A stretch of DNA of 52,017 nucleotides from Candidatus Omnitrophota bacterium (GCA_030674475.1 JAUSCZ010000033.1:1-52017), one strand, 5' to 3'; counted from the stretch's first letter, positions 4,544-22,012 are shown. The notes: a model not told the origin generated them from the letters alone. A program made the numbers and translations.

Positions 4544-4592
4544 AAAGCTGCCTAAGGTTATGCCGGATTAGGGAAGGTCCGGATAAATACTT

Positions 4593-4706: not shown

Positions 4707-4716
4707 GGGAATAAAT

Positions 4717-5880: not shown

Positions 5881-6186
5881 ATGTCGTGGGAAAAGAAACA
5901 GCTAAGATTTTAGGGTATCGTCCTATCTATAATAATAGCAGTAGAGATATCCTCACGTCTTTACCGGCTTGATTACCAGAGTTTATGGTATGATGAAATA
6001 AAAAATATTTCCTTGGCTAAGGAATTTAGCGTAAAAGAGTTTAGTTCAAGCGAGCATGCGTCTACGCAGCCGGTTTTCTTGCTTTGCCGGCCCATAGCCT
6101 GGTTTCGTCTGAAGTATCTTTTTTTCCGGTTCCCTGTGGAAGTATATATAATTAAAAAGTTTGTCCGGTTTAAACTATTTGCCTAA
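5881..6186 (+). pseudogene. Decayed GT39/ArnT-like membrane glycosyltransferase, 5' fragment with in-frame TAG
   Basis: One frame runs 101 codons from ATG at 5881 to TAA at 6184, interrupted only by TAG at codon 11 (5911-5913). It reads MSWEKKQLRF, stop, GIVLSIIIAVEIS, then RLYRLDYQSLWYDEI, matching the first membrane helix and the acidic WYDE loop of GT39-type transferases. The intact gene at 8308 has the same landmark (LRFYHLGYRDFWYDEI). A TTG to TAG change explains codon 11. The fragment then ends far short of the usual 450-550 residues. It abuts the GT4 stop, so it was probably the next operon member before decay. Confidence 0.75.
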
Positions 6187-6196
6187 GAGAATAATT

Positions 6197-7402
6197 ATGA
6201 TTTTGAGAATCTGGCTTAGGAAGGCGCTCACCAACCTGTTTGTCCTTATTTTTGTTCTATTCAGGGTATCTAAAGGCGAAGCAGGCAAAGAAAATAGCCG
6301 ATTTGATGAAAACAAATACAATTCTTTATCCTTAAGTGTGGATAGAAAAACAGCCAAAATCTCATCTGCTGGCAAAGAACAAATTAGTGTTTCTGATGTT
6401 TCCATAATTAAAGGCGGCGATGTTTATTCTATTACTAAAGAGGCTATAGATCTATTAGGGGGGATGAAGAAGGTCGTAAGTCCGGGCAGTAAGGTGTTTA
6501 TAAAACCTAATTACATTACCGGGGGTTTAGATGGGCATGATCCGGTAGCCAGTGGCGAAATAGCCCATCCGGCGGTAGTAGCCGCGGTGGCCGAGGAGTG
6601 CCTAAAGGCAGGGGCAAAAGAGGTCATTATCGGCGAATGGGTGGAGCGGCCGATTGAGATAAATTTTGGGGGAAAAGAAGGCCGGGAAGGGGCTCAGGTT
6701 AAAAAGTTGATTGATCGCTTAAACAAGAAATACAGGCACAAAATTTATTTGATCAATCTGATGGATTATACTAAATCTTTTAAATTTGTGCCTTCCAAAA
6801 CCAGCCTTAAATATCTGGCCATTCCGGATATTGTCGCAAATGCCGATGTGATTATTTCCATACCTTCCTTAAAGACTCATCATTACCCTTCGCCGGTAAG
6901 TCTAGGTATGAAGAACTTTATGGGAATTATGCCTTCCCTTTTTTACGGAGAGCCGCGGTATAAGCTTCATGAGGCCGGGATTCATCAAATAATAGTAGAT
7001 ATTAATGAGGCATTGCGTCCGGATTTGGTGGTGGTTAGCGGGGCTTTTGGAATGGAAGGCCGGGGCGCATCGGTATATCTAAGCGGTAAACCCGTTGATG
7101 TTAACAGTCGTGTAGGCGGGGCCCTGGTTATTGCCGGGACCGACCCGGTTGCGGTTGATGCCACGGCCACCCGCCTGATTACTAAAGATTGGAGGCCCGT
7201 GCCGGAAGATTTGCAATTGGGCAGCCCTTGGTATGTGCATCATTTGCGGATGGCCTATGAGCAGGGCCTGGGTAACATAAACACAGCGAACATCCATATT
7301 GTTGGCGAGAAATTAGAAGATGTACAAATGAATTGGGAGCCGTCTGACGATAATGTGTATCCGGAAATCCCCGAACCAAAAAATGGGCAGAGTATTAATT
7401 AA
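6197..7402 (+). CDS. DUF362 domain protein, N-terminally membrane-anchored
   Basis: A 401-residue protein. After an N-terminal hydrophobic anchor (residues about 8-24) it contains a DUF362 domain: GSKVFIKPNYI, HPAVVAAVAEECLKAGAKEVIIGE, SIPSLKTHH, MKNFMGIMP and GTDPVAVDATA are typical of the family. No ferredoxin-type cysteine cluster is present, unlike many DUF362 proteins. The family's reaction is not settled. I chose ATG 6197, which starts just before the anchor; TTG 6161 is in frame but lacks a ribosome-binding site. The gene overlaps the next secreted protein by 20 nt, suggesting a functional pair. Confidence 0.7.
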   Translation: MILRIWLRKALTNLFVLIFVLFRVSKGEAGKENSRFDENKYNSLSLSVDRKTAKISSAGKEQISVSDVSIIKGGDVYSITKEAIDLLGGMKKVVSPGSKVFIKPNYITGGLDGHDPVASGEIAHPAVVAAVAEECLKAGAKEVIIGEWVERPIEINFGGKEGREGAQVKKLIDRLNKKYRHKIYLINLMDYTKSFKFVPSKTSLKYLAIPDIVANADVIISIPSLKTHHYPSPVSLGMKNFMGIMPSLFYGEPRYKLHEAGIHQIIVDINEALRPDLVVVSGAFGMEGRGASVYLSGKPVDVNSRVGGALVIAGTDPVAVDATATRLITKDWRPVPEDLQLGSPWYVHHLRMAYEQGLGNINTANIHIVGEKLEDVQMNWEPSDDNVYPEIPEPKNGQSIN

Positions 7403-8315
7403 TATTTTTATTCTTGTTGCGATCTTTGGCGCGGGTTTAAGCGATATTCTGTTAGCCCAAGAGCATCCATTATTTGTCGAAGCGGTTAATTCTCGCGGGG
7501 ATTGGAAAGAAGGAGTAGTTGCGGCAAGAAGGGTTATTTTTACTGATAAGGCGGGGGCTGGTTCGGAAATAGATATTGATGTCCCCGCGGAAGGTAAGTA
7601 TCAGTTATTGGCATATATCCATCATAATTGGAGGAACAGAAACGCCTTTCCTTATATCCGCGTTGAGGCCGTTGATGCTAAAGGAAGCAGTCATAGCGGC
7701 TCTCATACGATTGAGAATATCTGGTATCTGGAAGATAATGACTCAGGTCGTTGGTTTTTTGTCAGCCTTTCAGAGAATCCTTATTGGGAGCTTCCCGAAG
7801 GCAGAGTGCGATTAAAGTTCCGGGCTGAGGGGAGGAGTTCGCCATGGGAAGATAAAAGTGTCCCCCTGGAAGGCAAGGTATCAATATACGGGTTTATCCT
7901 TGCCCCGGTAACTGTAAATGGCGATAACTCGCACTCCTTCTTATTAATAAATCCGGAACATTGCGGCGGCCGGTGGAATGTTGTTGATTACGATAAAGAA
8001 TACTCGACTAATTTTGTGGAAACCGAAAAGAAGGGCGCGGAGTTTTCATGCGCGATTAGTATCCCGAAAGCGGCTTATTACAGCGGAGTATTTTCGGTTT
8101 TATCCGCCCAGGGAGGTTCTCTTGGGGTGGAAATAGAGAATAAAGGATTTAGTTTTAAAAGAACAATAACTTTAAAAAATAACCCAGAGTGGCAGATGTG
8201 CCAATTGGAACTGGTATATCTAAATAAAGGCGGCTATAGCATCAAGGTTAAGAATTTAAAGCCAACTTTGCTCAAGATGGATTTCTTGCTATTATCGGCG
8301 CGGATAGATGATTAA
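7383..8315 (+). CDS. Secreted protein of unknown function, beta-rich
   Basis: From ATG 7383 the 310-residue product has a signal peptide (MGRVLINIFILVAIFGAGL, cleavage probably near LLAQ). The mature part alternates short beta-type segments: an N-terminal half (residues about 25-180) rich in Trp, Tyr and Gly, and a second beta module ending in LLLSARIDD. The pattern is compatible with two carbohydrate-binding-like beta sandwiches, but I recognise no family. It overlaps DUF362 upstream and the GT39-like gene downstream by 8 nt, so all three are translated together. Confidence 0.6.
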   Translation: MGRVLINIFILVAIFGAGLSDILLAQEHPLFVEAVNSRGDWKEGVVAARRVIFTDKAGAGSEIDIDVPAEGKYQLLAYIHHNWRNRNAFPYIRVEAVDAKGSSHSGSHTIENIWYLEDNDSGRWFFVSLSENPYWELPEGRVRLKFRAEGRSSPWEDKSVPLEGKVSIYGFILAPVTVNGDNSHSFLLINPEHCGGRWNVVDYDKEYSTNFVETEKKGAEFSCAISIPKAAYYSGVFSVLSAQGGSLGVEIENKGFSFKRTITLKNNPEWQMCQLELVYLNKGGYSIKVKNLKPTLLKMDFLLLSARIDD

Positions 8316-9762
8316 GAATTTTTTGGTAAATCTTAATAAGAAGATAATTTTGGATAAAGAGGCGATATGGTTATTCGCGATATTAATCGTTGCTTTTTTT
8401 TTGCGTTTTTATCACCTGGGTTATCGGGATTTCTGGTATGATGAAATAACAAGTTTTTATTACGCGCAACATCCCTTGGATAATTGGAATCCTCCATTTT
8501 ATTGGATATTGCTCCATTTCTGGACAAAGTTGTTCGGGGCTTCTGAGTTCAGTTTGCGATTTCCCTCTTTATTATTTAGTTTTATTTCTGTTTTTTTTGT
8601 CTATCTTCTGGGTAAAAGGCTTTTTGATTCCAGGGTTGGAATATATGCGGCTATATTTATGGCTTTTTCTCCTTTTCATATCCAATATGCTCAGGAGGCC
8701 CGGCCGTATAGCTTGTCGCTTTTTTTAAGTATTTTATCCACATATATACTTTTTATGGCTTTAACAGAGAAAAGGAGGAGATTTTGGTTCGTTTTTGTTT
8801 TGGTTACTGCCGCCGGGTTTTATAGCAATATAAACTATTATCATATATTCTTATTAATTGCTCAGGCGTTGTGTGTCTTTATTTTGTTAGAGAGCAAGGG
8901 CGTTAAAAAACTTTTTTATTTCTTATTTCCTATGTTGAGCTTTTTGCCTTGGGTTCCAAGATTCATCGAGAAATTTAACTGGATTAAAGGAGGAGATTTC
9001 TGGTGGATACGAAAACCGAATTGGGAAATTCTTTCTACTACTATGGCAAGTTTTGATTTTCGTTATAATGCTTTCTGGTCGCAATCTCAAGATTTTATCT
9101 CGAAAATGGTTATAGTGTTACTTTTGATATTAATTTTAAAGACCTTAAAACAGAGTAATGAATACAAGAATAAGATTATGACCTGTTTCATATTATTTTT
9201 GTTTCCCATTGTTTTGATATTTTTAGTCTCTAAAACAATCGTGCCTGTTTATCTTATCCGCGGTTTGATTATTTTTAGCCCATATTATTATTTTATTTTA
9301 GCTTTGGGGTTAACCGCGATAAATAGAAAAGCGGTGGAGGGCGCATTAATTTGTATTATAGTTTTCTTTTTCTCCGCAGGTATTTTTAATTATTACGCGC
9401 GTGTTGATGTGAAGAAGCCTTTTAAAATCGCAGCTAAGTTTATAGAAGATAATTTGTTTAAAGAAGATGTGGTTGTTTACGCAAGTTTAGCGGCCGAGCC
9501 AATCATATTTTACAGTAAAAGTATGGATTTTAAGCGACAGATCTATTTATTACTGTCTCACCGGATTTCAGATGAGGCATGCCAATTTCTAACAACAAAG
9601 AGAATATGGTTTATTTTTTGCCCGTGGGGACAGGAAATAAATTTGGCGCTTTCTGATGATAAGAATTCGCTCATGGTGAAAAAATATTTAGATAAAAATT
9701 TCAAACAGGAATTTGCGCGAAGTTTTGATAATGGCCTGGAGGTGTTTAGATATATGCGTTGA
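8308..9762 (+). CDS. GT39/ArnT-like polytopic membrane glycosyltransferase
   Basis: A 484-residue integral membrane protein with about 10-11 hydrophobic helices. The first loop holds the acidic WYDE motif at about residue 45, followed by NPPFYWILLHFW and the EFSLRFPSLLF segment. This is the signature of the PMT/ArnT group, which uses polyprenyl-phosphate sugars as donors on the periplasmic side. The C-terminal about 100 residues form a soluble domain. Start ATG overlaps the upstream stop region by 8 nt. The decayed gene at 5881 is a paralogue, so this pathway once had two such enzymes. Confidence 0.8.
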   Translation: MIKNFLVNLNKKIILDKEAIWLFAILIVAFFLRFYHLGYRDFWYDEITSFYYAQHPLDNWNPPFYWILLHFWTKLFGASEFSLRFPSLLFSFISVFFVYLLGKRLFDSRVGIYAAIFMAFSPFHIQYAQEARPYSLSLFLSILSTYILFMALTEKRRRFWFVFVLVTAAGFYSNINYYHIFLLIAQALCVFILLESKGVKKLFYFLFPMLSFLPWVPRFIEKFNWIKGGDFWWIRKPNWEILSTTMASFDFRYNAFWSQSQDFISKMVIVLLLILILKTLKQSNEYKNKIMTCFILFLFPIVLIFLVSKTIVPVYLIRGLIIFSPYYYFILALGLTAINRKAVEGALICIIVFFFSAGIFNYYARVDVKKPFKIAAKFIEDNLFKEDVVVYASLAAEPIIFYSKSMDFKRQIYLLLSHRISDEACQFLTTKRIWFIFCPWGQEINLALSDDKNSLMVKKYLDKNFKQEFARSFDNGLEVFRYMR

Positions 9763-9772
9763 GGTGCGTAAG

Positions 9773-11014
9773 ATGAAGAATCTTAACCCAGAAGCAAAAA
9801 TCATACAACTGGCGATGCTGCAGGCCTTGGATCAGCAATATTCCGGAGAAATCAATCGGCTTTTGTTGAGCGGCACCATTGATTGGATAAAAGTCAGAGA
9901 TTTGCTAAACTACCATGAGTTGGGCGCGTTATTTTATATTATTCTTAAAGACGATATTCATCTTCTCCCTCAAGAAATCTCTAATCTCTTAGCCAATACT
10001 TTTTATTACACGCTCAAAGATAATCTATGGAAATTAAAGCAATTCCAGCTAATAAATCAGGCTTTTAAACAGGAAGGCTTAAGAATGCTGGCGATGAAAG
10101 GTGTTGCCTTGCTGGCTCAGTTTTATGCTCATCTTCCTGCCCGGCCAATGGCCGATATAGATATCCTCTTGCGGGAAGAAGATTATGAAAGAGGAGCCGG
10201 GATTATAGAGGGGAGTGGCTATAAAAAAGAATTGTTTGGTCTTAAAGAGTCCTACTGGCGCCAGAGGCAATGTCATCTGACATTCGTTAGAAAGAGAGAA
10301 GGTGAAAGAGCGATTCTCTTAGAGGCTCATTGGTCTCTGGATTTTAGAAGGAATGGCCGGCTGGTCTTAGAGGAAATCTGGCAGAGGACGAAGGATGTTG
10401 ATACGGAATTCGGGCGGATTGGCGTGCTTTCGCCAGAGGATACCGTGCTTAGCTTAGCCCTGCATCAAAGAAGATTTGGTAAGGCGTTTTGTCTGAAATA
10501 TATTCTGGATATTGCTTTTCTTTTCAAAAAACATAGTGAAGAATTCGATTGGGATTATTTTTTATCTGTCTGCGGTAAATACGGGATGTCTTCTTGCGCG
10601 GGTTTTCTTCTCCTCCAGGGAAAATTATTTTTAAACTCCGGCCTTTTTGATTATGGTCTGGAGAAAATATCTCTATCCAGAAGCAAGAGGGCAATTATGG
10701 AAAGGTTCATCTTGAATAATTTTACCTCTTCCCGTTTAGACGAGAAGATAAAAGAGAATTATCTCAAGAGCCATTTTCTACTCTATAATACTTACAGGGA
10801 ACCGGTTAAATACATCATTAATGTTCCTTTAGAGCAATTTGCCAAATTTCACGGATTAAAACCATACACAATCAAGGCAAAATGGTTTTACGCCTGGCGT
10901 TTTATTTATAGTCCTTTTTGCGGTTTGGTTGTTTTTTTAGCCAGCGTGGGCAAAAAAGGAGGGTTAAAGGTTAAATTAAGCAGGGAAACGAAAGGAGGCA
11001 GGGATTGCGCGTAG
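9773..11014 (+). CDS. Nucleotidyltransferase-family protein (PF14907-like)
   Basis: A 413-residue protein whose residues about 105-200 carry the pattern of the uncharacterised nucleotidyltransferase family: MLAMKGVALLAQFY, then RPMADIDILLREEDY, where the paired Asp residues of DIDILL would hold metal, then CHLTFVR and EAHWSLDF. This family is often found next to peptide-natural-product genes, including lasso-peptide clusters. The start is ATG 9773 with GAGGTG six bases upstream. The gene overlaps the following peptidase-like gene by 10 nt, placing it in the peptide cluster. Substrate and reaction are unknown. Confidence 0.7.
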   Translation: MKNLNPEAKIIQLAMLQALDQQYSGEINRLLLSGTIDWIKVRDLLNYHELGALFYIILKDDIHLLPQEISNLLANTFYYTLKDNLWKLKQFQLINQAFKQEGLRMLAMKGVALLAQFYAHLPARPMADIDILLREEDYERGAGIIEGSGYKKELFGLKESYWRQRQCHLTFVRKREGERAILLEAHWSLDFRRNGRLVLEEIWQRTKDVDTEFGRIGVLSPEDTVLSLALHQRRFGKAFCLKYILDIAFLFKKHSEEFDWDYFLSVCGKYGMSSCAGFLLLQGKLFLNSGLFDYGLEKISLSRSKRAIMERFILNNFTSSRLDEKIKENYLKSHFLLYNTYREPVKYIINVPLEQFAKFHGLKPYTIKAKWFYAWRFIYSPFCGLVVFLASVGKKGGLKVKLSRETKGGRDCA

Positions 11015-11619
11015 TCAGGGCCTGGGGCTGGAGTATGCATCCAAATATTAAAGATGGCGATTTGGTTATTCTTAAAGAAAGGGAGCCGTCGCGTGGGGAG
11101 GTGATTTGTTTTTCGGGCTATTCTGGAACTAAGACCCTTCATCGTTTAGTTAAATTAAAGAGAGATTATTTAACCACTAAGGGAGATAATTGTTTAAACT
11201 TAGACAAAGCTATAAAATGGGATGAGATTTTGGGCGTAGCTATTGCCTTAAAAAGGGAGAACCGGATAATTCCGCTTAAAGGAAGATGGTTATATGGTTA
11301 TTTTTACTTTTTTTCAGGAGTAATCTTTCATGGGAGGAATTTCTTGAAATGGATAATAATGAATCTTCAAGAATTGGAGGTTTATTCCTGGATAGTCAGG
11401 GCCATCTTTTCAGACCAGAACATAGAAATTGCCCAAGGCGCCGAGACAGAGGATTTTTATCTTATCCAGGCCAGGGTAAATGGCCGGGAGGCAGCCGCGC
11501 TTAAAATAAACAAAAAAAGCTGCTCGGTGGTCTATTTGTATGTTAAAATTATCTATAGGAAATTAGGCATTGAAGAAAAATTGAAAGAAGAGGGTTTAAG
11601 ATTTATAAACACATGCTGA
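11005..11619 (+). CDS. S26/S24-type peptidase-like protein with acetyltransferase-like tail
   Basis: Residues 1-90 match signal-peptidase-type proteins: GWSMHPNIKDGDLV places the nucleophile Ser at residue 10, TLHRLVK gives a His-Arg pair as in the archaeal/SipW-like Ser-His type, and TTKGDNCLNLD is the usual next block. A short hydrophobic segment follows. Residues about 125-204 resemble a GNAT core (VYLYVKIIYRKLGIEEKLKEEGLRF). TTG is the start, with AAAGGAGG six bases upstream. Lying directly before the precursor gene, it could remove the leader peptide. The GNAT-like part ends early and may be frameshifted. Function is inferred. Confidence 0.6.
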   Translation: MRVVRAWGWSMHPNIKDGDLVILKEREPSRGEVICFSGYSGTKTLHRLVKLKRDYLTTKGDNCLNLDKAIKWDEILGVAIALKRENRIIPLKGRWLYGYFYFFSGVIFHGRNFLKWIIMNLQELEVYSWIVRAIFSDQNIEIAQGAETEDFYLIQARVNGREAAALKINKKSCSVVYLYVKIIYRKLGIEEKLKEEGLRFINTC

Positions 11620-11741
11620 AATTGGCTGTGAGGCGTGTTGGTTCTTGAGCGTTTCGTGGCGAGGAAAAAAAGACGCAGAATTAATGGAGAGCATGCTAGA
11701 TAAATTTGAAGATGATAATTATGAGGAGGTGAGTAAAAGCG

Positions 11742-11945
11742 ATGCCAAAAGAAGAGAGAGAAAAAACAAAAAAGAAAGAATGGACTACTCCCCAACTGGT
11801 CGTGTTGGTGAGGGGTGAGCCTGGCGAGGATGTTTTGCTTGCGTGTAAGTGTCCAGGGTGGTCGTGCGGTGGGCCAACTATTGGCGCGGGCACGTGCGCG
11901 TCGGGAGGTTCTTGTACACAATGTTCTTCATGCTATGATTCGTGA
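11742..11945 (+). CDS. Candidate RiPP precursor peptide, Cys-rich core
   Basis: A 67-residue peptide with a charged leader and a small-residue, cysteine-rich tail. The leader (1-34) is Lys/Glu-rich, then contains EWTTPQLVVLVRG and PGEDVLLACK, a compact amphipathic block of the type bound by PqqD-like domains. The tail has seven Cys (35, 37, 42, 52, 58, 61, 64) among Gly, Ser, Thr and Ala, and no long hydrophobic segment. A strong ribosome-binding site (GAGGAGGT, 11723-11730) precedes the ATG. Three SPASM radical SAM genes, a PqqD-like gene and an exporter follow, which fits a thioether- or otherwise carbon-linked peptide. The chemistry and product are inference. Confidence 0.75.
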   Translation: MPKEEREKTKKKEWTTPQLVVLVRGEPGEDVLLACKCPGWSCGGPTIGAGTCASGGSCTQCSSCYDS

Positions 11946-11980
11946 TATCCAATAGTCTTTCACCTTTTGGTTTTTAGTGC

Positions 11981-12010
11981 TTGAATTATTTTGGGCAACT
12001 GGGGGATAAT
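11981..12010 (+). promoter_or_regulatory. Possible sigma70 promoter before the maturase genes
   Basis: TTGAAT (11981-11986) and GATAAT (12005-12010) are separated by 18 bases in the 148-nt gap between precursor and first maturase gene. This would allow separate expression of the modification genes. It is a reasonable but imperfect match, and the maturase ATG at 12094 lacks a clear Shine-Dalgarno sequence. Confidence 0.35.
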
Positions 12011-12093
12011 CGCACTTGGCCGCGCTCAGTGTTAATGTAAAGTCGCCAGGAGTCTAATGTTTTTGCCTATTCTGATTATAAAAAAATGTATTA

Positions 12094-14049
12094 ATGAAAG
12101 AAGTATTTGTTGAAATAAAAGAAACAAATGTTTCGCCTCGCCTGCCTTTAGAGGGCAGGCTTGACCTTACCTACCGCTGTAATGATAACTGCCGTCATTG
12201 CTGGTTATGGTTGCCAGCGGAGGCAGAAGAGAAGGGGGAGGAGCTTTCTTTTGAGGAGATAAAGGGAATAGTTGATCAGGCCAGGAAAATGGGCTGCCGC
12301 AGGTGGTCTATCTCGGGTGGTGAGCCGATGCTAAGGCCGGATTTTTTGGAGATATTTGATTACATTACTATCCGCTCCAATTCTTATTCTATAAACACCA
12401 ACGGCACCCTGATTACTCCTGAAATAGCAGGTTTAATGAAAAGAAAAGGCACCAAGATGGTTGCCCTTTATGGGGCAACAGCTCAGGTGCATGATCATAT
12501 CACCCGTAATCCCGGGTCATTTGAGGCCACATTGAGAGGTTTCAGCTATCTAAAAGAAGCCAGCGCCAGCTTTATGGTCCAACTTATTCCGATGCGGGAT
12601 AACTATTATCAGTTTAAAGAGATGATAAAGTTAGCCGAATCCTTAAGCCTTCACTGGCGCATAGGCGCGGCCTGGCTTTATCTTTCCGCTTATGGCGATC
12701 CGGAGGTAAATAAAGAGATTAGGCGCCAGCGTCTGGAACCTGAGGAGGTGGTGAAATTAGATGAACCGGATTTATCTTACCAGGAACAGATGGAAGAAGC
12801 GGGTAGCAATTGTTGTCCGTCGGGAGGGGATGGTCGGATTTTTGCTTCTTGTATTTCCATAAGGAGGGATTTTCATATTGACCCTTATGGCAGAATGACT
12901 TTTTGTTCTTTTGTCAAAGATCCCGGTTTACGTTATGATTTAAGAAAAGGTAGTTTTAAGGAAGCCTGGGAAGAATTCATTCCCTCCTTAGCGGATAAAG
13001 TGAAGGCCACGAAAGAATATCAGAAAAGCTGCGGCTCTTGCGAATTACGCGAGGATTGTCGTTTCTGTCCGGTTTACGGCTACTTGGAACATCGTCGTTT
13101 TTCCGCCAAGGTAGAATATCTTTGCGCGGCAGCCAAAGAAAATAGAAATTTTAAAGAGAACTGGCTGAAAAAACACCGGCGTTACTATCGCATTGCTGAT
13201 ATTACCCTGCGGATAGACTCCGACCTGGCTATAGCTGAAGAAACCTTTCATCCTAAGTTTAAACTCTTTGCCGTGAATGCTCCAGGAGAAGATATGGTGT
13301 CCATAAGGCATCATTTTTTTCTTCCGGATTTAAAGGAAAGGGATTTAGGCGAGCAGGTTTATCGTAAACCTCCCTGGGCAGTTTATAAAAAAGGTAATTC
13401 CTGGATTTATCTGGGCATCTCACCTGTCCCGCAAGACCCCAGTCTACACCGGGTAGTGGTTTTTAATCACAACCATACCCGGGCCAGGATATATAATGAT
13501 AAAGAAGATGCTTTTCTAAAGGGAAATGCGCATTCACTGACTCTGTTTCCTACTGACCAGATACTTTTGGCTCGCATATTGGCAGACAGACAGGGCTGTT
13601 ACTTGCATTCCTGCGGGGTAAATTTTAAGGGAAAAGGCCTTCTTTTTGCCGGTCGCTCTGAAGCCGGCAAGTCCACCATGGCCAGGATCTTAAAAGATAA
13701 GGCCCGGATACTCTGCGATGATCGGATAATTATCCGAATGCACCCGGATGGTTTCAGAATTTATGGCACCTGGAGCCACGGCGATGTGCCGGAGGTATCC
13801 GCTGATTGTGTTCCTTTAAAAGCAATTTTATTTTTAAATAAATCGGCCCGGAATTATATAGAAAGAATAGAAGATAAAAAATTGATGGTTAAGAAACTTT
13901 TGGCCTGTCTGGTCCGGCCTTTTGTAACTGTTGACTGGTGGGAGAAGTCGCTTCAGATTTTAGAAAATACAAGTCAGGAAGTTCCCGGTTACGAACTATA
14001 TTTTGATAAAAGCGGCGGGGTAGCGGATTTGCTGGAGAAGTTATTGTAA
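12094..14049 (+). CDS. Radical SAM/SPASM maturase fused to an HPr-kinase-like domain
   Basis: A 651-residue fusion. The N-terminal radical SAM core has C29, C33 and C36 (CNDNCRHC), then SISGGEPMLRPDF. A SPASM region follows with CSFV, SCGSCELREDCRFCP and VEYLC. The C-terminal half (about 360-651) resembles the HprK-like proteins of peptide clusters: HSLTLFPTDQILLARIL, CYLHSCGVNFKGKGLLFAGRSEAGKST with a P-loop at residues 520-528, and DDRIIIR. HprK-like and PqqD-like proteins also occur with paired radical SAM enzymes in the SynChlorMet-type cassettes, but as separate genes. The stop overlaps the next ATG by one base. Substrate is presumably the peptide at 11742. Confidence 0.75.
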   Translation: MKEVFVEIKETNVSPRLPLEGRLDLTYRCNDNCRHCWLWLPAEAEEKGEELSFEEIKGIVDQARKMGCRRWSISGGEPMLRPDFLEIFDYITIRSNSYSINTNGTLITPEIAGLMKRKGTKMVALYGATAQVHDHITRNPGSFEATLRGFSYLKEASASFMVQLIPMRDNYYQFKEMIKLAESLSLHWRIGAAWLYLSAYGDPEVNKEIRRQRLEPEEVVKLDEPDLSYQEQMEEAGSNCCPSGGDGRIFASCISIRRDFHIDPYGRMTFCSFVKDPGLRYDLRKGSFKEAWEEFIPSLADKVKATKEYQKSCGSCELREDCRFCPVYGYLEHRRFSAKVEYLCAAAKENRNFKENWLKKHRRYYRIADITLRIDSDLAIAEETFHPKFKLFAVNAPGEDMVSIRHHFFLPDLKERDLGEQVYRKPPWAVYKKGNSWIYLGISPVPQDPSLHRVVVFNHNHTRARIYNDKEDAFLKGNAHSLTLFPTDQILLARILADRQGCYLHSCGVNFKGKGLLFAGRSEAGKSTMARILKDKARILCDDRIIIRMHPDGFRIYGTWSHGDVPEVSADCVPLKAILFLNKSARNYIERIEDKKLMVKKLLACLVRPFVTVDWWEKSLQILENTSQEVPGYELYFDKSGGVADLLEKLL

Positions 14050-15236
14050 TGTCTCAAAGTGCTTATGTTAGTAGGCAGGTTATCAGTAAGGCAGGTTTTC
14101 GGGAAGGAACAAAACCGCTCTTAAGCCGGTTAGACATTGAACTTACTGAACGCTGTAATAATAATTGCCTTCATTGTTACATTAATCTGCCGCAGGATGA
14201 TTTAGAGGCAAAAAATAAAGAACTATCCACAGATGAAATAAAAAACATTCTTAAGGAGGCTGTTTCTTTAGGCTGTTTGACCGTGCGTTTTACTGGTGGT
14301 GAGCCGCTTTTAAGAGCGGACTTTGAAGAGTTGTATCTTTTTGCCCGCCGGCTGGGTTTAAAGGTTTTGCTTTTTACCAATGCCACCCTGATTACAGGGC
14401 ATTTGGCAGAATTGTTTTTCCGTATTCCGCCTTTAGAGAAAATTGAGGTGAGTGTATATGGGATGAAAAAAACTTCTTATGAGGCGGTAACCCGCGCGCC
14501 GGGCTCATTTGAGGCTGCCTTTAGAGGAATAAACCTCTTATTAGAAAAACATATTCCTTTTGTGGTTAAGGGCGCCCTGCTTCCTTCTAATAAGGTTGAA
14601 ATAGGAGAGTTTGAAAATTGGGCAGTTACATCTATTGGGATGGATAATCCGCCGTCTTATGCTATGTTCTTTGATTTGCGCTGTCGAAGAGAGACTAAAA
14701 AAAATGAGTTGATTAAGAGTTTAAGGGTTTCATCAGAGGAAGGGTTAAAGGTCTTAATCCGGGAACAGGATAAATATTTAAAAGGGATGCGGGAGTTTTG
14801 TTCTAAGTTTGCCCGGCCCGGAGGTGATCTGCTTTTTACCTGCGGCGCGGGCTGTGACGGCGGTTGTGTAGATGCTTATGGTAATTTTCAAGCCTGTATG
14901 ATGCTTAGACACCCCAGGACAGTTTATGATTTAAAAAATGGTTCTTTGCGGGATGGCTTAACTAATTTCTTTCCGGTTATGAGGGAGATGAGAACGGATA
15001 GCCGGGAATATCTTATTCGCTGCGCCTGCTGTTTCTTGAAAGGTTTGTGTGAGCAGTGCCCGGCTAAATCCTGGATGGAGTACGGCACCATAGATACTCC
15101 AGTAAAGTATCTCTGTGAGATTGCCCATAGTCAGGCCAGATTCCTGGGATTATTGAATGATGGCGAAAAGGCCTGGGAGATTAGGGATTGGAAGGAAAGG
15201 ATAGGGAAATTTATGGGGAAAAAAGCTTACAGCTGA
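14049..15236 (+). CDS. Radical SAM/SPASM peptide maturase (second copy)
   Basis: A 395-residue enzyme with C36, C40 and C43 (CNNNCLHC) for the SAM cluster and RFTGGEPLLRADF as the GGEP motif. The C-terminal SPASM part has FTCGAGCDGGCVD, CMMLRH, RCACCFLKGLCEQCP and VKYLC. The layout, including the VSVYG and FEAAFRGINLLL segments, is close to the third maturase at 15569 and the first at 12094, so the three arose by duplication. In SPASM peptide maturases the auxiliary clusters bind or oxidise the substrate; thioether or C-C crosslinks are typical products. Which cysteine each enzyme acts on is unknown. Confidence 0.8.
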   Translation: MSQSAYVSRQVISKAGFREGTKPLLSRLDIELTERCNNNCLHCYINLPQDDLEAKNKELSTDEIKNILKEAVSLGCLTVRFTGGEPLLRADFEELYLFARRLGLKVLLFTNATLITGHLAELFFRIPPLEKIEVSVYGMKKTSYEAVTRAPGSFEAAFRGINLLLEKHIPFVVKGALLPSNKVEIGEFENWAVTSIGMDNPPSYAMFFDLRCRRETKKNELIKSLRVSSEEGLKVLIREQDKYLKGMREFCSKFARPGGDLLFTCGAGCDGGCVDAYGNFQACMMLRHPRTVYDLKNGSLRDGLTNFFPVMREMRTDSREYLIRCACCFLKGLCEQCPAKSWMEYGTIDTPVKYLCEIAHSQARFLGLLNDGEKAWEIRDWKERIGKFMGKKAYS

Positions 15237-15255
15237 CAAAAATGGAGAAATACTT

Positions 15256-15567
15256 ATGGAGAAAAAATTAGTCTTAGAGAGTATTTTCGCGCCTTCAGAA
15301 GATGTGGTGGCCCGGGAAATTCAAGGAGAATTCTTGATTATTCCCATCACTTCCGGCATCGCGGAATCTGATGAGGAGATATTTACGCTCAATGAAACAG
15401 CCCGGGTCGTCTGGAATAATTTAGACGGAAAGAGAACATTAAGGGCGTTGATAGATAAGCTCTCGGTAGAGTTTGATTCCCCTGCCGCGGAGATTGAAAA
15501 TGAAGTTTGTGGATTTACTGAAGAGCTTTTAAAAAGAAAGATGCTGATTGAGGTCAAAAGAGGATGA
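15256..15567 (+). CDS. PqqD-like peptide-binding protein (RiPP recognition element)
   Basis: A 103-residue protein with the PqqD pattern: an early beta region (VVAREIQGEFLIIP), the FTLNETARVVWNNLDGKRTLRALIDKL helix-turn-helix segment, then a final helix ending KRKMLIEV. PqqD-type domains bind the leader of the precursor and hand it to the radical SAM enzyme. Its place between two maturase genes, within 20 nt upstream and overlapping the next gene's possible early start, supports that role. It is a stand-alone protein here rather than a fused domain, so one binder could serve all three maturases. Confidence 0.8.
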   Translation: MEKKLVLESIFAPSEDVVAREIQGEFLIIPITSGIAESDEEIFTLNETARVVWNNLDGKRTLRALIDKLSVEFDSPAAEIENEVCGFTEELLKRKMLIEVKRG

Positions 15568-15568
15568 G

Positions 15569-16678
15569 ATGAAGTTTTTAAAATCCCTGACTTTACCTGA
15601 GTTTTCGCTCTGGAATAAGATGCGGGAGCAGGCAAAAATAGTTTCTTTTAATTTAGAGCTCACCGGCCGCTGTAATCATAACTGCCGGCACTGCTATATA
15701 AATCTCCCGGCTCAAGACCAGCAGGCTAAAGCAAGAGAATTTAAGGTAGACGAAATTGCCGGAATCGCGGAACAGGCAGTATCCTTAGGGGCGTTATGGT
15801 GCCTGCTTACCGGGGGCGAACCGCTCTTAAGGGAGGATTTTTTTGATATTTATTTAAGCTTAAAGAAAAAAGGGCTCTTGCTCTCTGTCTTTACTAATGC
15901 CGCTTTGATTACAGATAAACATCTCTGCTTTTTTAAAAAATATCCGCCCCGGGATATTGAGATAACAGTCTATGGGGTAACTCAGGAAACCTACGAGAAA
16001 GTAACCAGAAAGCCAGGCTCATTTGCCAATTTTACCCGGGGTTTGGACCTTTTGTTGGCCAGCGGAATTAAGGTGCGGCTCAAAGCAATGGTTTTACGCT
16101 CCAATGTCCGGGAATTGCCGGAGATCAGCCGCTTCTGCCGGGGAAAAACCAAGGATTTCTTTCGTTTTGACCCCTTTTTGCACCTGCGTTTTGATGGTGA
16201 TGCCGCCAGGAACGCGGAAATTAAAACTGAGAGGTTAGCCCCGGAGGAGATTGTGGCTCTGGAGAATTCGGATCCGCAGCGCTTTAAGGCCATGGAGAAA
16301 GACTGCGCTCAATTCATCTTCCCGGAATCTTCCCATTCTCACTGTAATCATCTCTTTCATTGCGGCGCTGGACAGGGAAGTTTTACCGTAAGTTATGACG
16401 GGTTCTTTCGCTTGTGCTCTTCTTTATGGCACCAGGATTGTATTGGTGATTTGAGAAAAGTCAGTCTTACTGATGCCTGGAGTAATCTTGTCCTCAAAGT
16501 AAGAGATATGCGCTCAGATAAGGAAAAATTCTTAAAGAGATGCAGGATCTGTCCGATAATAAATCTCTGTCTTTGGTGTCCGGCCCACGCCCACTTAGAG
16601 ACGCAAGAGATGGATAGCCCGGTGGAATATTTCTGCGCGGTGGCCCATGCCCGGGCAAAATCCCTAAAAAACAATTAG
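15569..16678 (+). CDS. Radical SAM/SPASM peptide maturase (third copy)
   Basis: A 369-residue enzyme from ATG 15569; a TTG 21 bases upstream is in frame but lies inside the PqqD-like gene, whereas AGAGG sits just before the ATG. It has CNHNCRHC, LLTGGEPLLREDF, then SPASM Cys in HCGAGQGSF, LCSSLWH, CRICPIINLCLWCP and VEYFC. The sequence is most like the second maturase (ITVYG, YEKVTRKPGSF). It is followed after 4 nt by the exporter gene. Regiospecificity is not predictable from sequence; it probably installs a different set of links from its paralogues. Confidence 0.8.
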   Translation: MKFLKSLTLPEFSLWNKMREQAKIVSFNLELTGRCNHNCRHCYINLPAQDQQAKAREFKVDEIAGIAEQAVSLGALWCLLTGGEPLLREDFFDIYLSLKKKGLLLSVFTNAALITDKHLCFFKKYPPRDIEITVYGVTQETYEKVTRKPGSFANFTRGLDLLLASGIKVRLKAMVLRSNVRELPEISRFCRGKTKDFFRFDPFLHLRFDGDAARNAEIKTERLAPEEIVALENSDPQRFKAMEKDCAQFIFPESSHSHCNHLFHCGAGQGSFTVSYDGFFRLCSSLWHQDCIGDLRKVSLTDAWSNLVLKVRDMRSDKEKFLKRCRICPIINLCLWCPAHAHLETQEMDSPVEYFCAVAHARAKSLKNN

Positions 16679-16682
16679 TTAG

Positions 16683-18434
16683 ATGCTGGAATATAAACTA
16701 TTTTTTAGGTTTACGAAATATATATTGCCGTATAGGCCTAAGCAGATTGCCATACTTGCCTTAAGTTGTTTAAGCATTTTATTGGAATTAATTAATCCCT
16801 ACCTGGGAAAATTGATTGTGGATAAGGCGATAGTCAATAAGAATTTTGAGATATTTATCGTATATGGTTTAATCGGTGCCGCTCTCTTTATTTCAAACGG
16901 TATTATTAAGGCAATAGCGGCGTTATTAGAAAAAGGCATGCAGTTAAAGGTGCGCTTTGATTTAAACAAAAAGTTGTTTAGCCATCTGCAGGCGTTACCG
17001 TTAGGTTTTTTTAAAGGCAGCGCCTCTGGTGAACATATGTATACCTTAAGTTATGATATTGAAAGAAGCGTTGACCTTATTATTTCAGTGCCCAAGGAAA
17101 CAGTGGCTATTCTGATGAAATTAGTTTTTATTCTGTTGATTATATTCTATCTTGACTGGCGAATGGCTGTTTTTTCGCTCGTCCTGGCCCAGGTTTTATA
17201 TCTACCGGTGGGTTATTTTAGTCGTAAGATGCGTTCTACCTGGGAAGATTTGATAGCCAGTTCCCAGAATATTTTCAAGAGAATGGAAGAAATATTTTCT
17301 CATATGTATTTAGTGAAGGCAATGGGTAGAGAAAGACATGAAGTAAGGGCGTATTTAAGGGCTCTGATTGGCAACCTAAAAATAGGTTTAAAAAATTTAA
17401 GGTTAGAGGTTTTGAGTAATCTTACGATAGGCGGCTTTGAGCGGGTGGTTATCGGGGGAATTTCCCTTTTTGGGGGTCTGCAGGTTATCCGGGGCAATTT
17501 AAGCTTAGGGACGCTTACCGCGGTAATGCTGTATCTGAGCCAATTGGTCAGCCTGCAAAGCGGCATTGGTTTGTTCTTTCAGAGGATTTCACTGGGGCTC
17601 ATTTCTTGCCGGCGCTTAGACGAGTTGTTAAGGCTTGCCCCGGAAGCTACTGAACTTCGCGGCACCGAAAAAATAGCGCTTAGAAGTCCGGTTATAAGGT
17701 TTGAGAAGGTCAGTTTTAAGTACAATTCTCAGGAGCATATCCTAAAGAATCTGGATTTTTGTTTTTCCGGAGGCTTAAATGTGTTAGTCGGCCCCTCGGG
17801 TTGCGGCAAAACAACAATAGTAAATCTTATTTTAAGGCTATATCGCCCCGGTGAGGGATTGGTATATGGCGCGGAGGAAGAAGATGAGGCGCGGCAGGTA
17901 GATCTGTCTTGTTTGAAAAGGCATATCGGAGCAGCCCTGCAAGATCCTTTGCTCTGGAATGATACCGTGGAGAACAATATACGCTATGGCAGTGAGCAAA
18001 AAGTGGGATTCGAGGAAATTAAAAGCGTGTCTAAAGTTTCCTGTGCCGATGATTTTATAGAAAATCTTCCTCACGGTTATCAGACGATTATTGGGGAAAA
18101 AGGCTGTAAGATCTCTGAGGGTCAGAAACAGCGCGTTGCTATCGCCCGCGCGTTGCTTAAGAGGCCTGCAATATTGCTTTTAGATGAAGCAATGTCTTCT
18201 ATGGACACCTTGAGTGAAGAAAAAATCATTGCCAACCTAAGGAAAATTTCCGGTCTTTATACCGTAATTATAGTTACACATAGACTGTCTACGGTTATGG
18301 CCTGCGATAGGGTATATTTTCTAAAAAAACCCGATACTATGGTTGCAGAGAAACCCGGAACGCTTATTCATAATGACAAAGAGTTTTATGATTTATTCTC
18401 AGCGCAAATAAGTAAATCCGCATTTATATCTTGA
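16683..18434 (+). CDS. ABC exporter (fused membrane and ATPase domains)
   Basis: A 583-residue half-transporter. Residues 1 to about 320 form a six-helix exporter membrane domain; the ATPase follows with Walker A GPSGCGKT (370-377), the signature ISEGQKQR (a variant of LSGGQ), Walker B AILLLDEAMSSMD and the switch THRLS. There is no N-terminal C39 peptidase, so leader removal, if needed, must be done elsewhere, for instance by the S26-like protein. As last gene of the peptide cluster it probably exports the mature product. A homodimer is expected because no partner is nearby. Confidence 0.85.
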   Translation: MLEYKLFFRFTKYILPYRPKQIAILALSCLSILLELINPYLGKLIVDKAIVNKNFEIFIVYGLIGAALFISNGIIKAIAALLEKGMQLKVRFDLNKKLFSHLQALPLGFFKGSASGEHMYTLSYDIERSVDLIISVPKETVAILMKLVFILLIIFYLDWRMAVFSLVLAQVLYLPVGYFSRKMRSTWEDLIASSQNIFKRMEEIFSHMYLVKAMGRERHEVRAYLRALIGNLKIGLKNLRLEVLSNLTIGGFERVVIGGISLFGGLQVIRGNLSLGTLTAVMLYLSQLVSLQSGIGLFFQRISLGLISCRRLDELLRLAPEATELRGTEKIALRSPVIRFEKVSFKYNSQEHILKNLDFCFSGGLNVLVGPSGCGKTTIVNLILRLYRPGEGLVYGAEEEDEARQVDLSCLKRHIGAALQDPLLWNDTVENNIRYGSEQKVGFEEIKSVSKVSCADDFIENLPHGYQTIIGEKGCKISEGQKQRVAIARALLKRPAILLLDEAMSSMDTLSEEKIIANLRKISGLYTVIIVTHRLSTVMACDRVYFLKKPDTMVAEKPGTLIHNDKEFYDLFSAQISKSAFIS

Positions 18435-18459
18435 CAGGCGGTTTTTTTAGATTTATAAC
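18431..18459 (+). promoter_or_regulatory. Strong sigma70 promoter for the pilus/secretion operon
   Basis: TTGACA (18431-18436), a 17-base spacer and TATAAC (18454-18459). The -35 box contains the stop codon of the ABC exporter (TGA 18432-18434). Transcription would begin about 18466, directly at the GspF ATG (18467), implying a leaderless or nearly leaderless mRNA. No Shine-Dalgarno sequence precedes that ATG, consistent with this. Confidence 0.65.
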
Positions 18460-18466
18460 TACAATA

Positions 18467-19675
18467 ATGCCGAATTATAATTATGCCGCCAGGGATAACG
18501 CCGGTAAGATTGTTAAAGGCGCCTTAGAAGCTGAGAATGAAATAGATTTAGCTAATAAGACAGCCGCAATCGGCCATTTTCTGGTCAGCTCCCGGATTTA
18601 TGCTTCTACCGTTAAGGTAATATCAAAACTGCCCTCGCTTAAGCCGAAAGAGGTTTTGAATTTCACAATTCATATGTCTACCTTGCTGGATGCCGGTGTG
18701 TCTTTATTAACCGGATTGCAGGATTTGGCCCAGGACGCCGAAAATAAAAATCTCAGTAAGGTGATAGACGATATACGTTCGCGCGTTGAGACCGGTGTTT
18801 CTTTGAGAGAGGCGATGTCGGCGCACCCGAAATCCTTTTCAAAGCTATACACGGCGATAATCGGAGCCGGAGAAAGCACAGGTAAATTATCCGTTTGTTT
18901 AAAGGATTTAATTAGTCTCTTGGATTGGCAGTTGGAGTTGAAGGCGAAATTGACCGAGGCTACTGTGTATCCGGTAATTCTTTTATGCGCGATGGGTGGG
19001 GTAGTGGCTTTGTTGGTGATAAAGGTAATCCCCAACTTTGAGCCGTTATTCGCCCAGGGGGGCATAGTGTTACCTCTGCCGACGTTAATTGTTCTGGGAG
19101 TGAGTCATTTCGCGCGAAGTTTCTGGTATCTAGGACCGTTAATTTTAGCCATGCTTTTTGGCGCATATAGATTTTATTATTCTAGGCCTAACGGTAAGTT
19201 TATACTGGATAGTCTAAAATTGAGACTGCCTATTTTCGGCATACTCGCGCGCAAGGTTGCCATATCCAGGTTTTGCCGCACCTTTGCTATAGCGGTAAAG
19301 TCCGGGGTAAGCGTTCTTCCGGCGCTGGATATAGCCAGTGGAGTTCTCGGCAATGACTGCCTGGAGCGTTCAGCCCGCAAGGCCAGGGATTCGGTTAATA
19401 TTGGAGAGAAAATTTCCGTTTCTTTCAAGGCTGCCGGCGAATTCCCGCCCCTGGTGGTGCGGATGATAAGCGTGGGAGAACAGTCAGGGGCTTTGCCTGA
19501 GGCCCTGGATAAAATTAATCAGTTTTATGACCGGGAGGTCCCGGCAACCATAAAGGTGATGTTTACTTTCCTTGAGCCGGTGATGATAGTTTTTATCGGT
19601 GTGGTGGTAGGCGGGATAGCCTTGGCGGTTTTACTGCCAATGTTTCAAATGTCGCAGATCGCGGGAGGATCGTGA
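18467..19675 (+). CDS. gspF: Inner-membrane platform protein GspF/PilC
   Basis: A 402-residue polytopic protein that starts MPNYNYAARDNAGKIVKG, the standard opening of the family. Two T2SSF domains follow, at about 65-185 (LNFTIHMSTLLDAGVSLLTGL) and 265-390 (ISRFCRTFAIAVKSGVSVLPAL). Each has the GExSGxL-type segment (GAGESTGKL, SVGEQSGAL), and three membrane helices are present. The protein links the assembly ATPase to the pseudopilus. An in-frame TTG 36 bases upstream lies in the ABC gene and would add unrelated residues. First gene of the operon. Confidence 0.9.
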   Translation: MPNYNYAARDNAGKIVKGALEAENEIDLANKTAAIGHFLVSSRIYASTVKVISKLPSLKPKEVLNFTIHMSTLLDAGVSLLTGLQDLAQDAENKNLSKVIDDIRSRVETGVSLREAMSAHPKSFSKLYTAIIGAGESTGKLSVCLKDLISLLDWQLELKAKLTEATVYPVILLCAMGGVVALLVIKVIPNFEPLFAQGGIVLPLPTLIVLGVSHFARSFWYLGPLILAMLFGAYRFYYSRPNGKFILDSLKLRLPIFGILARKVAISRFCRTFAIAVKSGVSVLPALDIASGVLGNDCLERSARKARDSVNIGEKISVSFKAAGEFPPLVVRMISVGEQSGALPEALDKINQFYDREVPATIKVMFTFLEPVMIVFIGVVVGGIALAVLLPMFQMSQIAGGS

Positions 19676-21492
19676 TGGCGGTGGTAGCCATAGATATAGG
19701 CATAGAAAACACCAAGATAGCCTGGCTGGAGCAGAAAAACGGCCTCCAGCTTTTGGATGCCTTTCTATTTAAGACCCCTTACTTATCCGCGGCTCAGCAT
19801 AAAGACCTCAGTCAGATTGAGCTTGAGGCTTTCTGGAAAGAGATTACCGCCCGGATTCCCCTTTCACGCGTTAAGAGATCGCAGATTGGAATAGGCCTCC
19901 CCTCAAATTTAATAAGCACCATATTGGTATCTTTGCCTAAGATGGGCATCCCGGAGCTTTCTAGCGCCGCCATAATTGAGGCAAAACGAAAAATGATCCC
20001 CGCGTCTACTTCGGAACATCTTTTTGAGTGGTCCATCGCGGGGGAGAGCGTAAGCGCTAATGTAAATAAGTATGCTGTGGTGGTAATCAGGATCGAGAAG
20101 GGTTTTATTCAGAATATACTGGATATTTTTAAGCCTATTGACGCGATTCCGTCATTGATTATCCCCTCTTGCTGCGCGATCCCCGCCTTGATACCCAAGG
20201 ATGCCTGGGGAAAAGATGAGGATATAGCTTTTATTGACTTAGGGGCGGGTAATTTAAATATTTCAATCTGCAGGTTGGGGAGATTGGTTCTTACCCGTAG
20301 TTTAGGTTATTCATTGAAGGATATTGCTACAGATATAGGCGGTCAATTAGGGATTACTAAGGATGAGGCGGAAAGTATAATTATTGAAGAGGGTATTCCT
20401 TTGGTGGATTTTGATCCTAAGAATAAGGCGGCTATCGCGGATGAGATAATGCGTCATAAATACGATACAAATCGGGATCTGTCGGCCGCGAGCGGTCACG
20501 CGGTTAATCCCCTGGAATTAAGGATGCTCTGGCAGGCGCATATTGATAGAATGGTTCAGGAGTTCAGGCGTTCTTTTATTTTTTACAAGGAGCAGAGCGA
20601 AGGCCGGCGGATAGAGCGGATATATTGCTTAGGAGGGGGTAGCCTGGTAAAAAACCTGAGTCCTGTTTTAAGCGGTTTAATCGGAGGACAGTTGCAGCTT
20701 ATCCCGCCTTTTAGCGGTCTAAAGGCAGCTAAAGGCAATATTTATGATGAAGCCTCGGGTTGTGCGGCATTTTTAAATTCAGCGGTAAGCATTGCTTTGA
20801 GTGTGTATGCCAAAAGCAGTAAAATCCCCGTAGTTAATTTTCTGCCTGTTGAATTGAGGAGGAAAGAAGCCGCCTCTAAGCGGAATCTGGTTTTATTCGC
20901 GGCGGGAGTTTGCTTAGTTCTTGTATTTGCTTTAGCTGGTGCCAATGTCCTGATGAGGCGCGGATTTCTTCAATCCTCTATCAGCGCGGTAGAGGCTCAA
21001 CTAAACAGCTTCAAAAATGTTAAGGATCGCCTTGACGAGCTCAGCCGTAAAAAAGACAAGCTTAACCGGCAATTAGCCAAGTTCGCGGAAATAAAACAGA
21101 ATCTGGATTGGAACTCTTTGTTAAAGAAATTATCCTTAAGCATCCCCCAAGATATAGTCTTGACTCAGATAGTAATCGTGAAAGGGGAAATACTTTCTGA
21201 AACCGCGCGGGAAGGCCACCTTGAGCCAAAAACTGAAGATAAAACTTTACGAATAAAGATTAATGCCCGGATTCTCGCGGATTACGAGAAGGCGCAGGAA
21301 ATTATTGAAAATTTCAAGGCAGCCATGGAGAAAACAGGATATTTCACTAAAATAAATATCCCGCCTTTAAGCCTGGAAGAAATTGTCGTTTCAGAGGCCG
21401 GGATGCCTTCGGAGAATTCGGCCATTACCAGGCCGCGGACGCGGGAATTCAGTCTGGAGGCCGAGGTGGTACCAATAGATGAAAAAAAATAA
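19675..21492 (+). CDS. pilM: PilM-PilN fusion (cytoplasmic actin-like plus inner-membrane assembly protein)
   Basis: A 605-residue fusion. Residues 1 to about 360 are a PilM-type actin-like ATPase (VVAIDIGIENTKIAWL; IAFIDLGAGNLNISI; IYCLGGGS). Residues about 380-605 are PilN-like: the NFLPVELRRKE motif that normally lies at the PilN N-terminus and docks into PilM, a membrane helix at about 403-425, a coiled coil and a small alpha/beta domain. In most species these are two genes (pilM, pilN). ATG 19675 is preceded by GGGAGGA; GTG 19672 is a poorer choice. It overlaps GspF by one base. Confidence 0.85.
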   Translation: MAVVAIDIGIENTKIAWLEQKNGLQLLDAFLFKTPYLSAAQHKDLSQIELEAFWKEITARIPLSRVKRSQIGIGLPSNLISTILVSLPKMGIPELSSAAIIEAKRKMIPASTSEHLFEWSIAGESVSANVNKYAVVVIRIEKGFIQNILDIFKPIDAIPSLIIPSCCAIPALIPKDAWGKDEDIAFIDLGAGNLNISICRLGRLVLTRSLGYSLKDIATDIGGQLGITKDEAESIIIEEGIPLVDFDPKNKAAIADEIMRHKYDTNRDLSAASGHAVNPLELRMLWQAHIDRMVQEFRRSFIFYKEQSEGRRIERIYCLGGGSLVKNLSPVLSGLIGGQLQLIPPFSGLKAAKGNIYDEASGCAAFLNSAVSIALSVYAKSSKIPVVNFLPVELRRKEAASKRNLVLFAAGVCLVLVFALAGANVLMRRGFLQSSISAVEAQLNSFKNVKDRLDELSRKKDKLNRQLAKFAEIKQNLDWNSLLKKLSLSIPQDIVLTQIVIVKGEILSETAREGHLEPKTEDKTLRIKINARILADYEKAQEIIENFKAAMEKTGYFTKINIPPLSLEEIVVSEAGMPSENSAITRPRTREFSLEAEVVPIDEKK

Positions 21493-22012
21493 TAGTTTAA
21501 TAAGCGTTATAATTATAGTTAGTTTGATTTTACTGGGTATGCTTTGCGTTAACCAATTAAAGATTAATCAGGATTTAAGTATGAGGCTTTCTGAAAGAAG
21601 AAAAGAGCTGGCAATGGCTGAGGATGTCAGCCGGCGCCTGGATGAATTAGAAAAAGAAGATAAAGACATTAAACAAAAACAGGAAGCAATGTCCCGGCAG
21701 GTTCCCTTTAATGAAAAACAGCCGTTTAATTTTATCCGGGCGTTTATTCAGGCGGGAACAAGGGCGGGGTTAAAAGAAATTAAAATCAACGTGGTTAAGA
21801 ACGAACAGCCTATAGTTTCCGAGGGATTTATTCCCATACGGCTGGAGTTAACTTGCAGCAGCGCCTTTTCTTCTTTATTGGTTTTCCTGAAACAATTAAC
21901 CGCCATGGAAAGGCTGATTAATGTGGATATGCTTAAAGTAGAGCGAGACGAAAAGCTTTTACCTGGTCAGAAAATTTATCTGCAGTTCCTAATTTATACT
22001 CTTCCGCAGTAA
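21479..22012 (+). CDS. pilO: PilO-like inner-membrane alignment protein
   Basis: A 177-residue bitopic protein: a short cytoplasmic tail, membrane helix at about 6-28, a coiled coil (SERRKELAMAEDVSRRLDEL) and a C-terminal ferredoxin-like alpha/beta domain (FIPIRLELTCSSAFSSLLVFLKQL). That order is the PilO signature, and the gene follows PilM-PilN with a 14-nt overlap. PilO pairs with PilN in the inner-membrane ring. It is the last gene before a 160-nt gap that contains a new promoter. Confidence 0.8.
   Translation: MKKNNSLISVIIIVSLILLGMLCVNQLKINQDLSMRLSERRKELAMAEDVSRRLDELEKEDKDIKQKQEAMSRQVPFNEKQPFNFIRAFIQAGTRAGLKEIKINVVKNEQPIVSEGFIPIRLELTCSSAFSSLLVFLKQLTAMERLINVDMLKVERDEKLLPGQKIYLQFLIYTLPQ

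Follow-up and report, generated by a model that had tools for sequence, protein, structure and literature searches.

A predicted RiPP cassette combining three radical SAM/SPASM enzymes with a fused HprK-like kinase in Omnitrophota, other bacterial phyla and methanogenic archaea

The window analyzed in this work is a 52,017-nucleotide stretch of DNA from Candidatus Omnitrophota bacterium (GCA_030674475.1 JAUSCZ010000033.1:1-52017), and its positions 9773-18434 hold a cassette predicted to make and export a ribosomally synthesized and post-translationally modified peptide (RiPP). All genes of the cassette lie on the plus strand with tight spacing, in the order PF14907 protein, S26-like peptidase, precursor peptide, a fusion of a radical S-adenosylmethionine (rSAM)/SPASM enzyme with a kinase (rSAM1-kinase), a second such enzyme (rSAM2), a PqqD-like RiPP recognition element (RRE), a third rSAM/SPASM enzyme (rSAM3) and an ATP-binding cassette (ABC) exporter (Table 1). 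An earlier note, made from the sequence alone, had proposed these positions and domains, which were confirmed by Pfam and NCBIfam matches, and had read them as a RiPP system built of a Cys-rich precursor and three SPASM maturases; the core of this reading also held, as homologous small open reading frames (ORFs) that share the leader and vary in their Cys tails adjoin the same enzymes across phyla.

Table 1. Genes and domains of the cassette, with positions in the window and the matches that identify them
Feature	Position	Strand	Identification
PF14907 (NTP_transf_5) protein, nucleotidyltransferase-fold	9773-11014	+	Pfam PF14907, E 3.7e-36
Archaeal-type signal-peptidase-I-like protein (SpI, S24/S26-type)	11005-11619	+	TIGR02228, E 2.8e-7, below cut-off
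RiPP precursor, 67 aa	11742-11945	+	Family alignment and HMM matches, E 2.1e-17 in the window genome
rSAM1, radical SAM/SPASM half of fusion	12094-13140	+	PF04055, E 7e-21
HprK-like Ser kinase domain fused to rSAM1	13159-14049	+	TIGR00679 and TIGR04249, both below cut-off
rSAM2, radical SAM/SPASM maturase	14049-15236	+	PF04055, E 1.4e-21
PqqD-like discrete RRE	15256-15567	+	PF05402, E 8.8e-14; PqqD structure 3g2b, E 8.5e-5
rSAM3, radical SAM/SPASM maturase	15569-16678	+	PF04055, E 1.7e-21; PF13186 SPASM, E 1.3e-5
MsbA-like ABC exporter	16683-18434	+	PF00664 and PF00005; MsbA, E 2.7e-79, below cut-off

The precursor gene starts at an ATG downstream of an AGGAGG ribosome-binding site and is the sole significant match of the precursor profile in the window genome. 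Its leader consensus, in window numbering, reads W14..P17.L19..L22.R24....E29.VL..CK (VLLACK in the window). When the profile was applied to 73 relative loci, 91 small-ORF matches (E<1e-3) were obtained, with 0 in the same DNA reversed, so that the peptide family is real and not a product of chance; the W-leader family comprises 126 unique members. Positions W14, P17, L19, R24, E29, L32, C35, K36, C52 and C61 are invariant or nearly so in the alignment. The seven Cys residues ascribed earlier to the window precursor (35, 37, 42, 52, 58, 61 and 64) are all present, but only C35, C52, C58 and C61 are canonical, C37, C42 and C64 being extras of the window; the usual core, CK..C..CxxC-x5-S, has four Cys and a Ser at its end. 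The window peptide terminates in Ser67, and the terminal residue is Ser in 113 and Thr in 9 of the 126 unique W-leader peptides (122/126 Ser/Thr). Since Ser accounts for just 10% of core residues, the terminal Ser is not compositional (enrichment P ~4e-96, uncorrected for relatedness). The last Cys is followed by exactly six residues to the end, giving the Cys-x5-Ser spacing, in 95/126. Searches of the precursors against NCBIfam and Pfam gave no family match, and matches to PadeA and other lasso precursors were weak (E 0.06-0.2) and suggestive at most. VLLAC was considered as a lipoprotein signal and ruled out, the signal helix being absent and the residue preceding the Cys variable. Two irregular forms were also encountered: a single ORF at L075:11580-12116 (minus strand) joins a PqqD domain to a precursor-like tail (KKRPYKSPEIAKVKMQPEQAVLSCC...SSSSMVS), and in L217/L107 two precursor genes (4677-4875 and 6218-6551) are frameshifted at one shared place, following LVRGG, and adjoin a third precursor gene that has a GGGGG run, so that pseudogenes, assembly errors or repeat slippage may be involved.

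Each of the three rSAM enzymes carries a CxxxCxxC motif and a complete seven-Cys SPASM pattern, conserved among relatives; the Pfam SPASM model is weak on rSAM1 and finds no match on rSAM2. In rSAM1, C29/C33/C36 and the SPASM residues C253, C271, C313, C316, C322, C325 and C344 are invariant in 29 homologues, and all ten cluster Cys of rSAM2 are conserved. Structural matches to the AlphaFold model of the rSAM1 half include SuiB, SkfB, PqqE and CteB, with EpeE also among the fold matches. The earlier note's three radical SAM/SPASM genes are upheld by PF04055 matches (E ~1e-21 each) and full Cys motifs, but it overlooked that the last ~290 aa of the rSAM1 gene product form a fused HprK-like kinase. 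This domain scores below cut-off with both the HPr kinase model TIGR00679 (E 1.5e-5) and the ScmC model TIGR04249 (E 1.9e-9). Its H505/K526/D542/D543 align to the catalytic His-Lys-Asp-Asp of L. casei HprK (a weak single-sequence match, E 0.39) and are conserved in 29 fusion proteins; the AlphaFold model has a pLDDT of 92, and Foldseek retrieves structures of PEPCK and HPr kinase, which are related folds. A plasmid search returned nothing beyond generic rSAM matches of ~26-29% identity.

The remaining proteins carry recognizable signatures. In the PF14907 protein, KG...Y.....R...D.D (K109, G110, Y118, R124, D128 and D130) is invariant across 33 homologues, and a PsmN/LppN-like role is predicted in which it would decorate a phosphorylated Ser. 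The SpI-like gene starts at a TTG preceded by GAAAGGAGG; S10, H46 and D61 of its product are the triad type of archaeal-type SpI (Ser-His-Asp), and the window copy has a GNAT-like C-terminus that is weak. His and Asp are kept in 71/71 of its homologues, of which 59 have Ser as the nucleophile and 12 have Cys, the Ser-to-Cys change (G.CM.P, with His and Asp retained) occurring in L081, L084, L085, L088, L111, L120, L126, L141 and L149. The protein is predicted to be LppS-like, a putative leader peptidase. The PqqD-like RRE is expected to bind the W..P.L leader, and the MsbA-like exporter is without a C39 peptidase domain. A promoter scan, a terminator scan and RNA folding of the gap between the peptide and rSAM1 genes gave no signal exceeding shuffles.

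Genome contigs were scanned with an alignment of the fusion protein, yielding 74 loci of similar cassette order throughout, 55 of which carry precursors; the fusion protein in relatives is 49-71% identical, and beside it lie small ORFs sharing the leader. Hosts include Omnitrophota, WOR-1/Saganbacteria, WOR-3, Chlorobi, Chloroflexi, Aminicenantes, Acidobacteria, Planctomycetota, Victivallaceae, Desulfobacterota (with the cultured sulfate reducer Desulfofustis glycolicus DSM 9705, locus L144) and methanogenic archaea. Because most loci are contigs of metagenome-assembled genomes (MAGs), some of them truncated, absences reported here relate to incomplete genomes. A second, compact branch (L204-L210, L232-L239, L076 and L077) consists of PqqD, one rSAM, precursor, HprK-like kinase, SpI and PF14907, and its precursors have a Y..P leader, 3 Cys and a terminal Ser/Thr in 12/12. 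In the Omnitrophota genome G057, 21 profile-matched precursors are spread in pairs and triples across about a dozen contigs. The one maturation cassette found there lies on C1, and ten satellite stretches examined (L061-L070) contain no maturases, with ABC genes in two; this cassette may serve the ~21 dispersed precursors in trans, a scatter reminiscent of systems where a single enzyme set handles many substrates.

Within the W-leader branch the number of maturases goes with the number of core Cys, three-rSAM cassettes having ~4 and two-rSAM cassettes 3. Loci without rSAM1 have at most three Cys in 13/14, the third Cys being the missing one, and loci with rSAM1 have at least four in 41/43 (Fisher p 6e-10, from a table in which L107, with its frameshifted precursors, contributes one row per class). 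In some rSAM1-less cassettes the kinase is a standalone gene and rSAM1 is absent genome-wide in those MAGs. Neither rSAM1 nor the third Cys is present in locus L154, which nests within the Omnitrophota clade; L161 and L199 have rSAM3 alone, the rSAM that even one-rSAM cassettes retain, and two Cys. As the lack of one maturase accompanies the lack of one particular Cys, the installation of several different links in one peptide, suggested previously for this locus, appears plausible from these sequence patterns.

The non-rSAM half of the cassette is the closer match to the toolkit of paeninodin/pseudomycoidin lasso peptides and Linear Polyphosphorylated Peptides (LPP), with rSAM/SPASM enzymes replacing the lasso cyclase (PMC13381572, PMC9266682). 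In lasso-peptide clusters, HprK homologues use His-Lys-Asp-Asp to phosphorylate the linear precursor at its C-terminal Ser, and their nucleotidyltransferase-like partner PsmN attaches hexoses (PMC9266682, PMC8498205). The paeninodin/pseudomycoidin systems (PadeK/PsmK, PsmN, B1) share with the cassette a [W/Y]..P leader, a discrete PqqD-like RRE, an HKDD HprK-like kinase, a nucleotidyltransferase-type protein, a C-terminal Ser on the precursor and an ABC exporter, and the lasso-type pairing of that kinase with that Ser is found here. They differ in that the cassette has three SPASM enzymes, a Cys-rich core and a kinase fused to an rSAM; neither the lasso macrolactam cyclase C nor the B2 transglutaminase-like protease was found in the annotated cassette and its neighbors (6161-22009), the genome as a whole not having been searched. 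The LPP core set (SpI, discrete RRE, HprK-like kinase, NTP transferase and MsbA-like exporter) is present in full, a Y/W..P leader and nearby glycosyltransferase genes occur in both, and LPP and paeninodin clusters are likewise located in polysaccharide loci. In LPP, LppS cleaves the leader together with the RRE (PMC13381572, 2026). LPP are reported as restricted to Bacillota, phosphorylated at core Ser3 and led by YxxPxVLxHQxIxFET, in a paper that does not mention radical SAM (PMC13381572). The cassette, by contrast, occurs in other phyla and archaea with a Cys core, a terminal Ser and a WxxPxLxxLxR....E.VL..CK leader, and the window precursor does not show the LPP combination of leader and core Ser3. 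The earlier note had recorded the S26-like peptidase and PF14907 neighbors correctly and had missed both their link to this toolkit and the terminal Ser. Sactipeptide and ranthipeptide maturases (SkfB, CteB, SuiB, PapB) share the rSAM-SPASM fold and full set of cluster Cys; the cassette differs from them in its discrete rather than fused RRE, its several paralogues, its kinase partner and sequences well below the family cut-offs. The gene combination was not found in searchable open-licence papers or family libraries, an absence that does not prove novelty.

Building on the genes, motifs and families observed, on their co-conservation and on the statistics of the terminal Ser, we consider it likely that this is a RiPP biosynthesis and export cassette uniting two known toolkits, and we infer every chemical step, the order of steps and the biological role. 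By analogy with lasso and LPP RREs, the PqqD-like protein would bind the W..P.L leader, whereupon the three SPASM enzymes would modify the Cys-rich core, thioether or other radical cross-links on C35, C52, C58 and C61 being likeliest. The simplest division of labor suggested by the co-variation would assign rSAM1 to C58 (the third Cys), rSAM2 to C61 (the last) and rSAM3 to the rest. The rSAM1-fused kinase would then phosphorylate Ser67, a step proposed because the kinase carries the catalytic motif, because the precursors almost always end in Ser/Thr and because lasso kinases set a precedent, so that by this analogy the last residue of the exported peptide is probably phosphorylated. The PF14907 protein would attach a group, perhaps a hexose, onto the Ser67 phosphate, the archaeal-type signal peptidase, presented by the RRE, would remove the leader near the VL..CK boundary, and the MsbA-like pump would export the product.

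Several observations weigh against this pathway. On a paralogue-clean tree there are seven changes, and on supported branches 4 pairs agree, 0 oppose and 1 is neutral (p 0.125); another tree count leaves just 3 independent pairs on supported branches, and the co-variation is not significant given relatedness. L121 and L171 break the co-variation, and the Y-leader branch combines a single rSAM with 3 Cys, which means that enzyme count does not generally set Cys count. A co-variation of rSAM1 with the third Cys beyond kinship is suggestive, not established. A sign test on a concatenated tree (p 0.03) was discarded, as its rSAM2/rSAM3 profiles had picked mixed paralogues, and a general rule of one rSAM per Cys was ruled out by the Y-leader branch and the two exceptional loci. 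As for phosphorylation, the precursors of SynChlorMet-type loci with HprK-like genes do not end in Ser and LPP phosphorylation sits at core Ser3, so the presence of a kinase does not fix a C-terminal site; in L199 the kinase is present, yet the precursor has a terminal Tyr. NTP5 and ABC genes are absent from some short loci.

Three other readings were weighed. SPASM membership leaves the reaction open, and with PqqE (C-C bond) and EpeE (epimerase) among the fold matches and cores that are Gly/Ser-rich too, the three rSAMs could perform other SPASM chemistry (C-C, C-O or epimerization) and leave the Cys for disulfides or metal; we regard this as possible yet rather unlikely, given that Cys positions are invariant, that one Cys is missing along with one rSAM and that the thioether enzymes SkfB and CteB are likewise fold matches. 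We think it unlikely that the C-terminal Ser is kept for a need of a maturase or the exporter rather than for phosphorylation. The constant Cys-x5-Ser distance could mirror rSAM2 specificity, LPP kinases target another Ser (PMC13381572) and Scm precursors accompanied by a kinase-like gene have no terminal Ser, but L161 retains its Ser though it has neither the last Cys nor rSAM2, the Y-leader branch still has Ser on another core, and lasso HprK homologues specifically recognize a C-terminal Ser (PMC8498205, PMC9266682).

SynChlorMet (ScmC-ScmF, TIGR04248-TIGR04251), named at first as the nearest system, gave way in this role to the lasso and LPP toolkit. It shares PqqD-like, HprK-like and SPASM components and an overlapping taxonomic range with the cassette, unlike which its precursor cores are of another kind, and all its models fall below cut-off here: ScmC scores 37 against 125 bits, ScmD 30 against 100, and ScmE and ScmF ~64-95 against 400 on the cassette rSAMs (maxima 83 and 95). 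In L116 a genuine Scm set (ScmE 502, ScmF 432 bits) adjoins the cassette as a separate cassette, and its precursor is of a Cys-repeat type without a CK core or C-terminal Ser. That the cassette is plain SynChlorMet with ScmC fused to an additional rSAM is thus very improbable on these scores and this neighbor, even though the component types match (PqqD-like, HprK-like, at least two SPASM enzymes), the family model that fits the kinase best is that of ScmC and SynChlorMet models rank among the better ones for the rSAMs; judged by sequence, the two are sister systems, related yet distinct.

Elsewhere in the window, a further radical-SAM-like ORF (3212-4432, plus strand) lies in an upstream glycosyltransferase-rich region (218-5880), and genes for T2SSF, PilM and PilO (type II secretion/type IV pilus; 18431-22012, plus strand) follow the cassette immediately and are probably unrelated. 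An FMN riboswitch (Rfam RF00050, 79.6 bits) is located at 41675-41902 (plus strand).

The balance is even on a broader proposal, that the cassette represents a cross-domain RiPP class found in methanogens and in many anaerobic bacterial phyla, where a bifunctional rSAM-kinase and two further SPASM enzymes would each act on their own Cys and the C-terminal Ser would be phosphorylated and decorated, the products being phospho(glyco)peptides with multiple cross-links, and in which one Omnitrophota cassette may serve ~21 dispersed precursors. The natural series of one-, two- and three-maturase cassettes offers a direct test of the assignment of enzymes to Cys, and with Desulfofustis glycolicus DSM 9705 being cultured, chemistry and knockouts become feasible. 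If true, the proposal would join radical SAM cross-linking with HprK/NTP-transferase C-terminal decoration, RiPP logics hitherto described separately, and would extend the LPP/paeninodin toolkit past Bacillota into many phyla and archaea.

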